Positions 32,480 to 54,990 of a stretch of DNA of 64,000 nt are shown one piece after another. Source of the stretch: Caulobacter radicis (GTDB lineage Bacteria; Pseudomonadota; Alphaproteobacteria; Caulobacterales; Caulobacteraceae); the NCBI RefSeq assembly GCF_003094615.1, contig NZ_QDKO01000040.1, positions 134,675 through 198,674 on the forward strand, written 5' to 3'. A program made the position numbers and the translations under genes. The notes under the pieces are model-generated. The model was given only the letters and a program-made list of their open reading frames with translations, did not search any database and was not told the origin of the DNA. The number at the start of each line of letters is the position of its first letter. Position 1 is the stretch's first letter.

Positions 32480-33142
32480 TCAGTACCCCCTTGGCGGCCG
32501 CCAGCCGGCCAGGCCGAGCATGAACTCGCCCAGCGCCCGCTCGTCGCCGCGCTCGGGCGACCAGCGGTTCACATAGCGATAGGTCCCGCCGCTTGCGGAT
32601 TCCAGGATCCATTGCGACCCGTCCGTACCCAAGCGGCAGTCGGCGGAACTCCGGTTCAGATTCGATGCGGCCTTCAGCAGATGCTCGAAGCGGCGTTCCT
32701 CGTCCTTGCTCAACACCCTGCGCACAACCCCGCCGGCGTTTTCCTCCGGCAGGCCGGGATCGTAGCCGCCCGCCCCGGACAGCCGCGTGGCCACCAGCTC
32801 GGTCTCACCGGTGGACCAGCGGTTCAGGCGCACGATCATCGGCTTGTGGAAGGTGGGGATGAAGGTCAGCCGGTAGGTCCGCACGCCCGGCGGACGCGAC
32901 TGACGCGACAAAGCGTAGAGCGAGGGCTCGTCGGCTGCCATCAGGATGCGCGGATACCATTCGGCTTCGACCTCGCTGATCACCGGCTGGCGTCTGAAGA
33001 TCGGGCAGAGGATCGAGGGCTTGCGGAACTCGGGCGGAAAATAGCCGGACCCCCGCGCCGGGTCCGACGCTGCGCCGACCGGCGGGGCGGCAGCAAGCGC
33101 GCCCATGATGATCGCAATCGCCAGACCGCCGCCTTTGATCAT
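32480..33142 (-). CDS. Secreted hypothetical protein
   Basis: 220 residues with a signal peptide (LAIAIIMGALAAAPPVGAA). The mature region has two cysteines (SILCPIFRR and SADCRLGTDGSQWILE) and a mixed-strand pattern (TYRLTFIPTFHKPMIVRLNRW, GGTYRYVNRWSP). I recognise no family. Convergent with DUF1223, 13 bases apart; a 767-base gap lies upstream. Confidence 0.65.
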   Translation of the reverse strand: MIKGGGLAIAIIMGALAAAPPVGAASDPARGSGYFPPEFRKPSILCPIFRRQPVISEVEAEWYPRILMAADEPSLYALSRQSRPPGVRTYRLTFIPTFHKPMIVRLNRWSTGETELVATRLSGAGGYDPGLPEENAGGVVRRVLSKDEERRFEHLLKAASNLNRSSADCRLGTDGSQWILESASGGTYRYVNRWSPERGDERALGEFMLGLAGWRPPRGY

Positions 33143-33199
33143 GACCTCTCCCCCTCGCGGCCATTGTGACGGCGTGGGTTTACGGGTGTCAATCCGGTG

Positions 33200-33370
33200 C
33201 GGGCGCGCAAAAGAAACCCCGCCTCGCCTTAGGGGATGATCGGCGAAGCGGGGTCTTTAGGGGAGGGGATAGAAGATACGCGCCGGTCGAACGGGCCGCC
33301 CACGAGCCGGTGGGCTGGAGGGGCTGTTCAGGATCCCGGACCGCGAGGCGTTCCGATCGACCGACCATGA
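33200..33370 (-). ncRNA. Candidate small RNA, tandem unit 1
   Basis: A minus-strand unit with the block GGATCCTGAACAGCCCC at 33336-33320, a C-rich stretch with CCCCTCCCCTAAA, and a terminator hairpin at 33217-33253 followed by TTTCTTTT on the minus strand. The same layout recurs 284 bases away in the neighbouring unit, and identity extends weakly but without gaps upstream of the block. No coding sequence explains the conservation. The 5' end is not determined. Confidence 0.45.
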
Positions 33371-33489
33371 GACTATCGAGGGGCCAAGCGGCCGACGAAG
33401 GGCGCGATCAGGGTCGTTTCGCGACGGGGTGGGGCGGCTCTGTGGCGATCTTTGCAGTTCCGCAAGCCGCGTCGAAAAGGGGCGGGGGG

Positions 33490-33660
33490 CCAGATGCGAA
33501 AAGCCCGCGTGGGAGGGGGCTCCACGCGGGCTCTGCAGTTTAAGAGAGGGGTTCTCTTGATTTGGTCTGTCGGCCGACCGGCCCGCGATCAAGGGGGGCT
33601 GGGGGGGCTGTTCAGGATCCTGGACCGTGGGGTCTCCGATCAGCCGACACTGACTTTTTC
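33490..33660 (-). ncRNA. Candidate small RNA, tandem unit 2
   Basis: Partner of the unit at 33200-33370: block at 33620-33604, then CCCCTCTCTTAAA and a strong terminator (AGCCCGCGTGG / CCACGCGGGCT, 33502-33532) with TTTTCG on the minus strand. The hairpin loop AGCCCCCTC is C-rich. Both units resemble trans-acting sRNAs that pair with ribosome sites. Read as sRNA by inference; RNA evidence is needed. Confidence 0.45.
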
Positions 33661-33762
33661 GCTGGGGAAGCGGGCGGGCGAACGACCGAAACAAGGTCAT
33701 TTCGTGGCCTGGTTCAGCTTGGCTTTTCGCTTCGTCGAACGATGTTGCGGATTTGCGACGGC

Positions 33763-33874
33763 TGAGCCTGTCGGGGCCGGATGGAACATCCGGGCCCCGA
33801 TAAACAGGCTCAGACTCAAAGTTTAGAGCGCGTTTGGGCGGGCGAAACCGCTCACACTTTCGCCCAACGCGCTC
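33763..33874. other. Two long hairpins in the 33.1-33.9 kb gap
   Basis: Hairpin 1 (33763-33812): TGAGCCTG, TCGGGGCC and GGATG pair with CATCC, GGGCCCCGA and CAGGCTCA around a GAA loop. Hairpin 2 (33826-33874): AGCGCGTT and GGGCGAAA pair with TTTCGCCC and AACGCGCT. They lie 36-100 bases ahead of DUF2794. They could end the upstream transcription, structure the DUF2794 leader, or be a repeat unit. Confidence 0.6.
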
Positions 33875-33909
33875 GCTTAAACGCCTGATTTGGGGTTAGG
33901 ATTCGTCCG

Positions 33910-34239
33910 ATGGCCCTGGATGTCTCCCCTCCCGTCGGCGGCGTCGTGTTCTTCGAGCGGCGCGAGATCGACCAGCTGCTGCGGCTGTACGGCCGGATGG
34001 TCGCGGCCGGCGAGTGGCGCGACTACGGCATGGGCGGCGCGGCCGACCACGCGGCCTTCTCGATCTTCCGCCACGCCGCCGAGGCCCCGCTCTATCGCGT
34101 CGAGAAGTGGCCCGAGCTGGCTCGCAAGCAAGGCCAGTGGCTGGTGCGCGGCCAGGGCGGCATGGTGCTCAAGCGCGGCCACGACCTGGCCCAGGTTCTG
34201 CGGCTGTTCGACAAGGGCAAGTTCAAGGTCGTCGACTAG
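33910..34239 (+). CDS. DUF2794 domain protein
   Basis: 109 residues: VVFFERREIDQLLRLYGRMVAAGEWRDYGMGGAADHAAFSIFRHAAEAPLYRVEKWPELARKQGQWLVRGQGGMVLKRGHDLAQVLRLFD fits DUF2794, small cytosolic proteins found across alphaproteobacteria. Function unknown. No signal peptide or membrane helix. A bidirectional terminator follows, shared with the convergent BI-1 gene. Confidence 0.8.
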   Translation: MALDVSPPVGGVVFFERREIDQLLRLYGRMVAAGEWRDYGMGGAADHAAFSIFRHAAEAPLYRVEKWPELARKQGQWLVRGQGGMVLKRGHDLAQVLRLFDKGKFKVVD

Positions 34240-53585: not shown

Positions 53586-54446
53586 TCAAGCTTCGAAGGC
53601 GACCTGGGCGGTGGTCAGGTCGTAGGTCGCCGGCACGATCTTCAGGCGGCCCTGGGCGATGCGCTCGGCCAGGACGCCGTCGGCGACCTTGAGGCGCGAA
53701 GCGATGTTGCGGGCGTTGCGGCGGGCGGCCGCGTCGTGCAGGTCGGCGGGGTGCTCGCCCTGGGCGTCGAACACCGCCGGCAGGATCGGCGCCAGCACGG
53801 CCTCGAACACGCCGGTCGGGCGGCTCTTGCGGGTGGCCGCGTCGACGGCGGCCCCGACCACGCCGCACTTGGTGTGGCCCAGCACCACGACCAGCGAGGC
53901 GCCGAGCGTATCGACGGCGTAGACGATGGCGCCCAGCGCCTCGGGGCCGACGGTCGGGCCGGCCGCGCGCAGCACGAAGAGGTCGCCCAGATTGCAGTTG
54001 AACAGCAGTTCGGGCGCCACGCGGCTGTCGCTGCAGGCCACGACCACGGCGAACGGCCGCTCGGCCGCGGCCATCTCGCCGATGCGGGCCGCCGCAGGCA
54101 GGACGAGGCTGGCGCCGCCGCGGGCGAAGATGGCGTTGCCCTGCTTGAGCCGGCCCAGCGCCTCGTCGGGGCTGATGCTGGGGACGGGCTTGGCCGGCTG
54201 GACCTGCACGCCAGAGACGGCGGTGGGCGCTTCGGGCTGCGCGCCTTCCAGCGGCGGAACGCTCTTGAGCGCCTTGTCGAGGGCGGCCTTGTCAGTGGGC
54301 TGGGTCGCCAGGGCCTTGGCGGTGCGGCGGGCCTTGGGCTTCCAGACCGGCGGGGTCCGGACCTCCTGGTAACCCTCGGCATGGGCCAGGACGGGCGCGG
54401 CGAGGCCGGCGGCCAGGCCGCCCAGCAGGATGCGTCGAGAAACCAT
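53586..54446 (-). CDS. Tat-exported beta carbonic anhydrase
   Basis: 286 residues from the ATG at 54446. The opening MVSRRILLGGLAAGLAAPVLAHA has the twin-arginine SRRxLL signal, so it is exported folded. A spacer of about 90 residues follows, then the beta-CA core: Cys138-x-Asp140-x-Arg142 in VACSDSRV and His191/Cys194 in LGHTKCGVV (zinc ligands). It converts CO2 and bicarbonate in the periplasm, unlike the cytosolic Can at 44621. Confidence 0.87.
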   Translation of the reverse strand: MVSRRILLGGLAAGLAAPVLAHAEGYQEVRTPPVWKPKARRTAKALATQPTDKAALDKALKSVPPLEGAQPEAPTAVSGVQVQPAKPVPSISPDEALGRLKQGNAIFARGGASLVLPAAARIGEMAAAERPFAVVVACSDSRVAPELLFNCNLGDLFVLRAAGPTVGPEALGAIVYAVDTLGASLVVVLGHTKCGVVGAAVDAATRKSRPTGVFEAVLAPILPAVFDAQGEHPADLHDAAARRNARNIASRLKVADGVLAERIAQGRLKIVPATYDLTTAQVAFEA

Positions 54447-54516
54447 GGTCGCCCCCGGAAACGATAACAACGCCGCGACCCTAGGGGCTGGGGGTTAACC
54501 GGAACCCAAGCCGGGT

Positions 54517-54990
54517 TCAGAGCGGCAATTCGACGCGTTTGACCACGGTGCGCATGGCGATCGACGAGCTGACCCGCACCACGCCGGGGATCCGCGTCAG
54601 TTCCTGGCTGTGCACCCGCTCCAGGTCGTCGACATCGGCCACCACCAGCCGCAGCAGATAGTCCGAGCCGCCGGTCATCAGGTAGCACTCGGCCACCTCG
54701 CGCACATTGGCCACCGCCTTCTCGAAGGCGGTCAGCGCGCCCTCGGCCTGGGACGACAGGGTGACGGTGACGAAGACGCTGAGCGGCAGGCCCACGGCCC
54801 GCTCGTCGATCACTGCGGCGTAGCGGCCGATGACCCCGGCGTCCTCCAGGGCCCGCACCCGGCGCAGGCAGGCCGACTCCGACAGGTTGGCCGCCTTGGC
54901 CATGTCCACGTAGCTGGCCCGACCCTCGCGCTGGAGCAGGCGGAGGATCTTTCGGTCGAACACATCAAGCGTGACCGGGGATTTCTTCAC
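54517..54990 (-). CDS. Lrp/AsnC family regulator, probable regulator of ald
   Basis: 157 residues from the GTG at 54990, preceded by GGAG. N-terminal winged helix (LDVFDRKILRLLQREGRASYVDMAKAANLSESACLRRVRALEDAGVI) and a C-terminal RAM ligand domain (VTLSSQAEGALTAFEKAVANVREVAECYLMTGGSDYLLRLVVADVDDL). Divergent from ald; AldR-type Lrp proteins activate ald in response to alanine. An inverted repeat at 55028-55049 lies between. Confidence 0.9.
   Translation of the reverse strand: MKKSPVTLDVFDRKILRLLQREGRASYVDMAKAANLSESACLRRVRALEDAGVIGRYAAVIDERAVGLPLSVFVTVTLSSQAEGALTAFEKAVANVREVAECYLMTGGSDYLLRLVVADVDDLERVHSQELTRIPGVVRVSSSIAMRTVVKRVELPL

Follow-up and report, generated by a model that had tools for sequence, protein, structure and literature searches.

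A tandem pair of CC3664-type sRNA genes beside DUF2794 in Caulobacter radicis and its probable kinship with BjrC174

The minus strand of Caulobacter radicis carries, at 33200-33710 of the window (the whole 64-kb stretch of DNA analysed), two units of like build, here called unit A and unit B. Both are almost certainly real sRNA genes of the CC3664 type, with predicted RNA ends. Judging from its sequence, unit B is a CC3664 RNA and belongs to a family already described, while unit A is the undescribed half of the pair. Taken as a whole, the locus is best explained by a pair of paralogous, C-rich sRNAs which would be transcribed here, would act in trans and would form one family with BjrC174; the probability of this reading is put at roughly 0.7.

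Two units of like build

Read from 5' to 3', each unit consists of a GAAA[TC]GACC[CT]TG... element, a core of the -35/-10-like type, a long hairpin that contains GGATCCTGAACAGCCCC and has a C-rich loop, a linker, a terminator hairpin, and a T-tract. A repeat search detected a 40-nt repeat in two copies, at 33309-33348 and 33593-33632, with 88% identity and 284 nt apart. The 17-nt block GGATCCTGAACAGCCCC is present twice on the minus strand at the same distance of 284 nt, and a scan of the 5.57-Mb genome with up to three mismatches found it without mismatch at exactly these two places. The block is followed on its 3' side by a C-rich stretch (CCCCTCCCCTAAA in unit A, CCCCTCTCTTAAA in unit B), and the 3' end of each unit is a GC-rich hairpin with a minus-strand T-tract. 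Upstream, GAAACGACCCTG (from 33420) and GAAATGACCTTG (from 33703) are almost equally far from the RNA start of their unit. The preliminary description of this DNA had claimed two minus-strand units 284 bases apart with a common block, C-rich stretches followed by a hairpin and T-tract in each, and similarity extending upstream of the block; these claims are borne out. The features of the locus are as follows.

33499..33648, minus strand: unit B, CC3664-type sRNA gene; predicted RNA from 33648 to about 33499; RF01530 match
33209..33365, minus strand: unit A, tandem paralogue; predicted RNA from 33365 to about 33209; RF01530 match under the cut-off
33604..33620, minus strand: 17-nt block GGATCCTGAACAGCCCC of unit B (repeat search and genome scan)
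33320..33336, minus strand: 17-nt block GGATCCTGAACAGCCCC of unit A (repeat search and genome scan)
33684..33703, minus strand: upstream promoter element of unit B, GAAATGACCTTGTTTCGGTC; best PWM position in the window; alignment A4
33655..33682, minus strand: core promoter of unit B, -35-like TTCGCC (33682-33677), 16 nt, -10-like GAAAAA (33660-33655); alignment A4
33401..33420, minus strand: upstream promoter element of unit A, GAAACGACCCTGATCGCGCC; second-best PWM position
33372..33377, minus strand: putative -10-like GATAGT of unit A; alignment A4
33569..33648, minus strand: 5' hairpin of unit B, 13-bp outer stem GUCGGCUGAUCGG/CCGGUCGGCCGAC (RF01530 alignment and fold)
33593..33611, minus strand: C-rich loop of unit B with flanking base, CAGCCCCCCCAGCCCCCC; conserved in alignment A5
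33502..33532, minus strand: terminator hairpin of unit B, CCCCCUCC loop, then T-tract (sequence, RF01530 alignment, covariation)
33216..33254, minus strand: terminator hairpin of unit A, UCCCCU loop (present in 27/27 aligned second units), then T-tract
33910..34239, plus strand: DUF2794 gene (PF10984), divergent neighbour and syntenic anchor; Pfam E 1.1e-37

The family assignment of unit B is clear. RF01530 (CC3664) aligned to 33502-33648 over its full model (1-136) with 105 bits, the cut-off being 60, and an E-value of 3.9e-18 in a search of 1,051 bases. This was the only match at Rfam thresholds in the window. Unit A was also aligned over the full model (33216-33365; 57.1 bits, E 2.3e-8 in the 1,051-base search), below the gathering score of 60, and is therefore called a paralogue and not a formal CC3664 member. 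Second units orthologous to unit A reached 74 (G018), 64.3 (G016), and 61.4 bits (G033). The locus had been proposed earlier as a pair of paralogous regulators, possibly new. Paralogy holds, with separate promoters and terminators, but unit B is not new, being the CC3664 RNA of Rfam. This RNA is reportedly a Caulobacter sRNA from the work of Landt and colleagues in 2008.

Other families were sought at 32900-33950 with matches accepted up to E 5. BjrC174 (RF02355) scored 28.6 bits at unit B, under its cut-off of 45, and ar14 (RF02344) 21.8 bits at the locus, under its cut-off of 58.8. No covariance-model match to AbcR/ar15 was obtained up to E 5 in this range. Hence, the comparison with AbcR/ar15 or ar14 made in the preliminary description does not hold. 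The cuckoo-type loop motif CCUCCUCCC is absent from both units when their sequence is read. As for further copies in the same genome, RF01530 gave a weak place of 19.5 bits (L004). Another weak RF01530 place (L003) and a promoter-like place (L186) were rejected as extra copies, being read by eye as coding-like sequence. According to the accessible part of one report, CCNA_R0092 of C. crescentus varies with the cell cycle (PMC3829707); that it is CC3664 is an idea, a candidate identity.

The C-rich loop and its possible partners

The long 5' hairpin exposes the C-rich loop GCCCCCCCAGCCCC in unit B and GCCCCUCCAGCCC in unit A. Compared to dinucleotide shuffles, the hairpin energies correspond to z-scores of -3.17 (unit B) and -2.86 (unit A). 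The genus shows modest covariation, chiefly at terminator pairs. In unit B, changes on both sides were seen at 3/38 consensus pairs, two of these three in the terminator; in unit A at 6/19, all six in the terminator. The outer stem of unit B is almost invariant in the genus and therefore gives little information on pairing.

Sequence comparison establishes the homology, the arrangement in tandem, the common promoter, and the conservation of the loop; transcription in Caulobacter radicis and the mode of action are inferences. Units A and B would be tandem genes for paralogous trans-acting C-rich sRNAs, each with its own promoter. In each RNA, the 5' hairpin would display the C-rich loop; a linker would come next, and then a terminator that carries more C-rich segments of the UCCCCU type. 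The GCCCCCCAGCCCC and UCCCCU segments could then pair in trans with G-rich ribosome-binding sites or leaders of several mRNAs, and loop pairing would mostly block translation. The two copies may provide dosage or partly separate target sets. Base-pairing of the C-rich loops with G-rich mRNA sites is considered somewhat probable. As for the direction of the effect, the accessible part of the work on GsrN (CCNA_R0081), the general stress sRNA of Caulobacter, describes six loop cytosines that pair with the G-rich 5' end of the katG mRNA and activate katG (PMC5869019). Activation is hence as open as repression for the two units.

Target prediction, which had been suggested earlier as a check, was run by long complementarity and gave no standout target in the genome: complements of the 17-nt block occur at 54 places against 31 for a reversed-pattern control, and those of the loop at 53 against 46. 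The lack of an mRNA target with long complementarity would suit another explanation, in which the RNAs are real but serve as decoys, their repeated C-rich loops binding a protein or another sRNA and not mRNAs. Across the class, the loop varies much less in sequence than the surrounding stems, and this fits a protein site as well as a pairing site. However, the C-rich loops of GsrN do pair with a G-rich mRNA leader, as far as the accessible part of that source goes (PMC5869019), and no protein partner emerged from this analysis. Decoys are thus judged unlikely, and pairing with mRNAs is the preferred reading.

Promoters and tandem copies

Each unit has its own conserved promoter module, made of an upstream GAAATGACC-TTNTTTCGGTC element and a -35/-10-like core, and the conserved promoter sequence GAAATGACCTTATTTCGGTC stands before the units. 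The core of unit B shows near-constant spacing in alignment A4 (28 sequences), and its hexamers may be taken as -35-like and -10-like. The strongest single result of the analysis is the promoter test with a PWM of 49 columns derived from 46 non-Caulobacteraceae promoters. Its source alignment (A3) had contained both units, and both were omitted from training. When both strands of the window were scanned, unit B ranked first with 22.0 bits and unit A second with 8.9 bits, the third place reaching 7.7. Moreover, in 27/27 Caulobacteraceae loci given to the PWM, the best place was directly upstream of the RNA, and in the 10 genus loci among them, the second-best place was upstream of the second unit.

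A second promoter model, R2, was built from 28 Caulobacteraceae promoters, both units included. Across the genome it found exactly two good places (E 9.8e-18 and, for unit A, 3.9e-12), the next one being at 0.05. The promoter therefore looks dedicated to CC3664-type RNAs. An unusual promoter would also fit the activity described for BjrC174: of the tested Bradyrhizobium transcription start sites that lack a mapped RpoD- or RpoN-type promoter, its own showed the highest promoter activity, according to the accessible part of the report (PMC4842269).

On sequence comparison, the tandem pair is old. RF01530 matched 73 of 75 genus genomes at E <= 0.01 and 59 over the cut-off, and a manual count gave 35/75 with a tandem of two or three same-strand matches. 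A motif search located the second core 215-284 nt downstream in 28/31 genus loci. The misses were L010, L027, and L032; the last ends at a contig edge, and the covariance model detects a second copy in L027. Since the motif search adds seven genomes, the tandem arrangement is present in at least 42/75 genus genomes. Of 299 sampled family genomes, 228 gave a match at E <= 0.001 and 121 over the cut-off.

The copy number is variable. Three-copy sets are found in some genomes (G004, G049). In G049 (contig C67, L036), a three-copy array is located away from DUF2794, and the same genome has a single copy beside DUF2794 (L037). In six genus genomes (L187-L192), copies of about 79 nt are dispersed outside the main locus; they have the same core and, upstream of it, an element resembling CCGCCCCAATCCGGGCAAG. 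In a genome of a distant family (G340, L080), a separate tandem pair of this RNA type with its own promoters was seen at about 1007-1324, the two copies 193 nt apart; the class-wide model R1, introduced below, also matches two unlinked places in this genome.

The lower scores of unit A, 57.1 against 105 bits for RF01530 and 8.9 against 22.0 bits for the promoter, together with a core that differs from that of unit B by 2-4 bases in many relatives, might point to a decaying duplicate, with function in unit B alone. Nevertheless, the second unit is retained with a terminator-like end in 28/31 genus loci, its terminator loop UCCCCU is identical in all 27 aligned second units, double changes occur at six terminator-stem pairs of unit A, and in the whole genome its promoter ranks second. 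Decay is therefore quite unlikely, and two paralogous genes are the reading retained.

The DUF2794 slot and the wider family

The DUF2794 gene was present in 30/30 genus loci (L005-L034) and in about 16/20 of L035-L054; it was not found in L036 and L048 at E 1e-4. For a wider view, 80 named DUF2794 loci were used, which are the best 80 of at least 590 relatives, mostly Hyphomicrobiales. A strict C-rich motif, GC(4-8)[AT](1-2)GC(4+), within 900 nt upstream of DUF2794 was found in divergent orientation in 43 of these best 80 loci and was missing from the other 37. It occurred in 0/80 on the other strand upstream and in 0/79 downstream on either strand, and mononucleotide shuffles gave it in 12/1600. 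A 15-nt motif, allowing two substitutions at most, was divergent in 10 of 30 further class loci and on the same strand in none.

In Rhodopseudomonas, Rhodoplanes, Pseudolabrys, and Microvirga, the slot is occupied by BjrC174, an abundant sRNA of Bradyrhizobium according to the accessible part of its description (PMC4842269). RF02355 was over its cut-off in the divergent DUF2794 slot in 5/15 named loci scanned (L143, L125, L126, L105, L144), with 130.1 bits in Rhodopseudomonas faecalis, 78.1 in Rhodoplanes, 72 in Pseudolabrys, 54.1 in Microvirga rosea, and 53.1 in a Rhodopseudomonas MAG; Roseibium, at 35.8 bits, was below it. Unit B has the orientation and slot of these RF02355 loci, divergently upstream of DUF2794. 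In the Caulobacter radicis genome, unit B was the sole RF02355 match at E <= 0.01 (E 0.0059). A scan of 240 class genomes with RF02355 gave four matches at E <= 0.01, none over the cut-off. Both models match locus L050, with 64.1 bits for RF01530 and 35.1 bits for RF02355, the latter under the cut-off. Rfam places neither family in a clan.

The hairpin was also followed across the class in 54 non-redundant sequences, all selected for the C motif. In this selected set, at least eight pairs enclose the motif in 54/54 sequences on folding, at least 60% of the motif is unpaired in 46/54, and the z-score is below -2 in 40/54 (median -2.8). RNAalifold yields a weak consensus for the class alignment (6 pairs, -0.85 kcal/mol). 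The covariance model R1, built from these 54 sequences, ranked unit B at the top of the window (E 0.0026), with unit A in third place (0.087). The second place, 54423-54536 on the minus strand (17.3 bits), spans the gap between the end of an Lrp-type gene and the start of a carbonic-anhydrase-like gene by ORF reading and was judged a chance match. In the whole genome, the best E-value of R1 was only 0.234. Held-out Hyphomicrobiales loci (L167, L117, L155, L136, L161) gave 2.8e-10 to 2.7e-8, and L050, outside the training set, 3.5e-9. A scan of 230 class genomes yielded 15 with a match at E <= 0.01 and missed the Caulobacter radicis genome. Ten of these matches are divergent to DUF2794 (G310, G443, G520, G502, G304, G416, G439, G440, G340, G483) and five are not (G527, G423, G469, G467, G412). 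Some of the 15 genomes supplied training sequences; among the nine that neither supplied a training sequence nor are near-copies of one, four matches are linked to DUF2794 (G416, G439, G483, G502) and five are unlinked.

CC3664 and BjrC174 are very probably one family, i.e., orthologous descendants of an old alphaproteobacterial sRNA divergent to DUF2794. Their likeness could otherwise be due to convergence on a C-rich loop at a common slot. C-rich loops recur in unrelated alphaproteobacterial sRNAs, e.g., as CCUCCUCCC loops in the accessible part of one study (PMC3927594), and the BjrC174 model scores the window below its cut-off. The gene neighbour and the orientation are, nonetheless, the same, the common promoter was recognised blind by the PWM, and L050 is matched by both models, so that convergence is very improbable and common descent is preferred. 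A coding origin, or terminators with chance repeats only, has a negligible probability: a same-strand ORF of 147 aa (33257-33700) covers both units, but its frame is open throughout in 2/12 genus loci (the window and L034) and interrupted by stops at codons 13 to 134 in the remaining ten; the spacing of the 17-nt cores, 215 to 284 nt, varies irrespective of frame; and the RNA family model matches both units. The earlier statement that no reading frame explains the units did not mention this ORF, whose frame is not conserved.

Several other elements were noticed in the neighbourhood. The DUF2794 protein was considered as a candidate binder of the RNA. Its AlphaFold model (mean pLDDT 85) consists of a helix, five strands, and a helix. 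Foldseek gave no match at E <= 0.001. VIA-align Z-scores were at most 7.5, with frataxin/CyaY and Mediator subunit chains among the rows at Z 5-7.5, which may reflect only a common arrangement; a PDB sequence search returned one match at chance level. Between DUF2794 and unit B, there is a strong palindrome at 33826-33874 (both strands). When 120 bases covering it were used as a query, part of them recurred in the genome as three more partial copies (80-92% identity), as in a short interspersed palindromic repeat. Another hairpin is situated near 33763-33811. Between unit A and DUF1223, an ORF of 220 aa without Pfam match (32480-33142, minus strand) looks like a recent arrival, as it was found outside its own genome only in L034 among the loci compared. 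Weak BjrC68 (RF02353) matches of 23.6-27.4 bits, against a cut-off of 39, sit at the DUF2794 end or just beyond it in three loci (L037 196-285, L049 400-470, L054 375-442); possibly, they reflect a shared terminator only, or else a second sRNA of the neighbourhood. The ybhL leader (RF00520) exceeds its cut-off at sites past DUF2794 in two rhizobial loci (L137 3710-3779, L161 3754-3815), where it presumably serves the neighbouring Bax1-I gene; none was found at Rfam thresholds in the 64-kb window.

A broader and tentative proposal, which is rather doubtful in its full extent, would make CC3664, its twin, and BjrC174 a single core alphaproteobacterial sRNA that predates the split between Caulobacterales and the rhizobial orders. 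A putative conserved activator would read the dedicated promoter, and the loop would commonly regulate ribosome access in many mRNAs. Its dose would be tuned by repeated duplications, tandem as well as dispersed, and DUF2794, the constant neighbour, might be a functional partner. If CC3664 and BjrC174 form one family, sRNAs catalogued separately in Caulobacter, a cell-cycle model, and in nitrogen-fixing Bradyrhizobium become one question. The conserved loop indicates the bases to mutate, the conserved promoter could be used as bait for the regulator, and the tandem copy would explain a possible lack of phenotype in a single deletion.

In the literature searched, mostly without subscription papers, neither the CC3664 tandem pair nor DUF2794 together with an sRNA is mentioned. 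New relative to the literature found are unit A, the tandem arrangement across the genus, the copies dispersed elsewhere, the promoter that looks dedicated, and the slot shared with BjrC174; as most subscription papers lay outside the search, the silence of this literature is not proof of absence.

Among known systems, the ar14, AbcR/ar15, and CCUCCUCCC-loop cuckoo-type sRNAs share C-rich loops, which are often present in multiple copies. However, the locus scores below the ar14 cut-off and has no ar15 match up to E 5, and neither unit contains CCUCCUCCC. GsrN also has a C-rich 5' loop, but it is encoded at another locus with a sigma-T promoter, according to the accessible part of its description (PMC5869019); the promoter of the two units has a different conserved pattern. 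The resemblance to BjrC174 goes further. Both are divergent to DUF2794, with a GCCCCC(C)AGCCCC loop on a two-step stem and a related upstream promoter element, whereas the stem sequence and the 3' part differ and the window, at 28.6 bits, stays under the cut-off of 45. The closest system is CC3664 itself, which unit B matches end to end, with the same structure, the C-rich loop, and the slot beside DUF2794 in relatives; unit A differs from it as a second, diverged copy under the cut-off.
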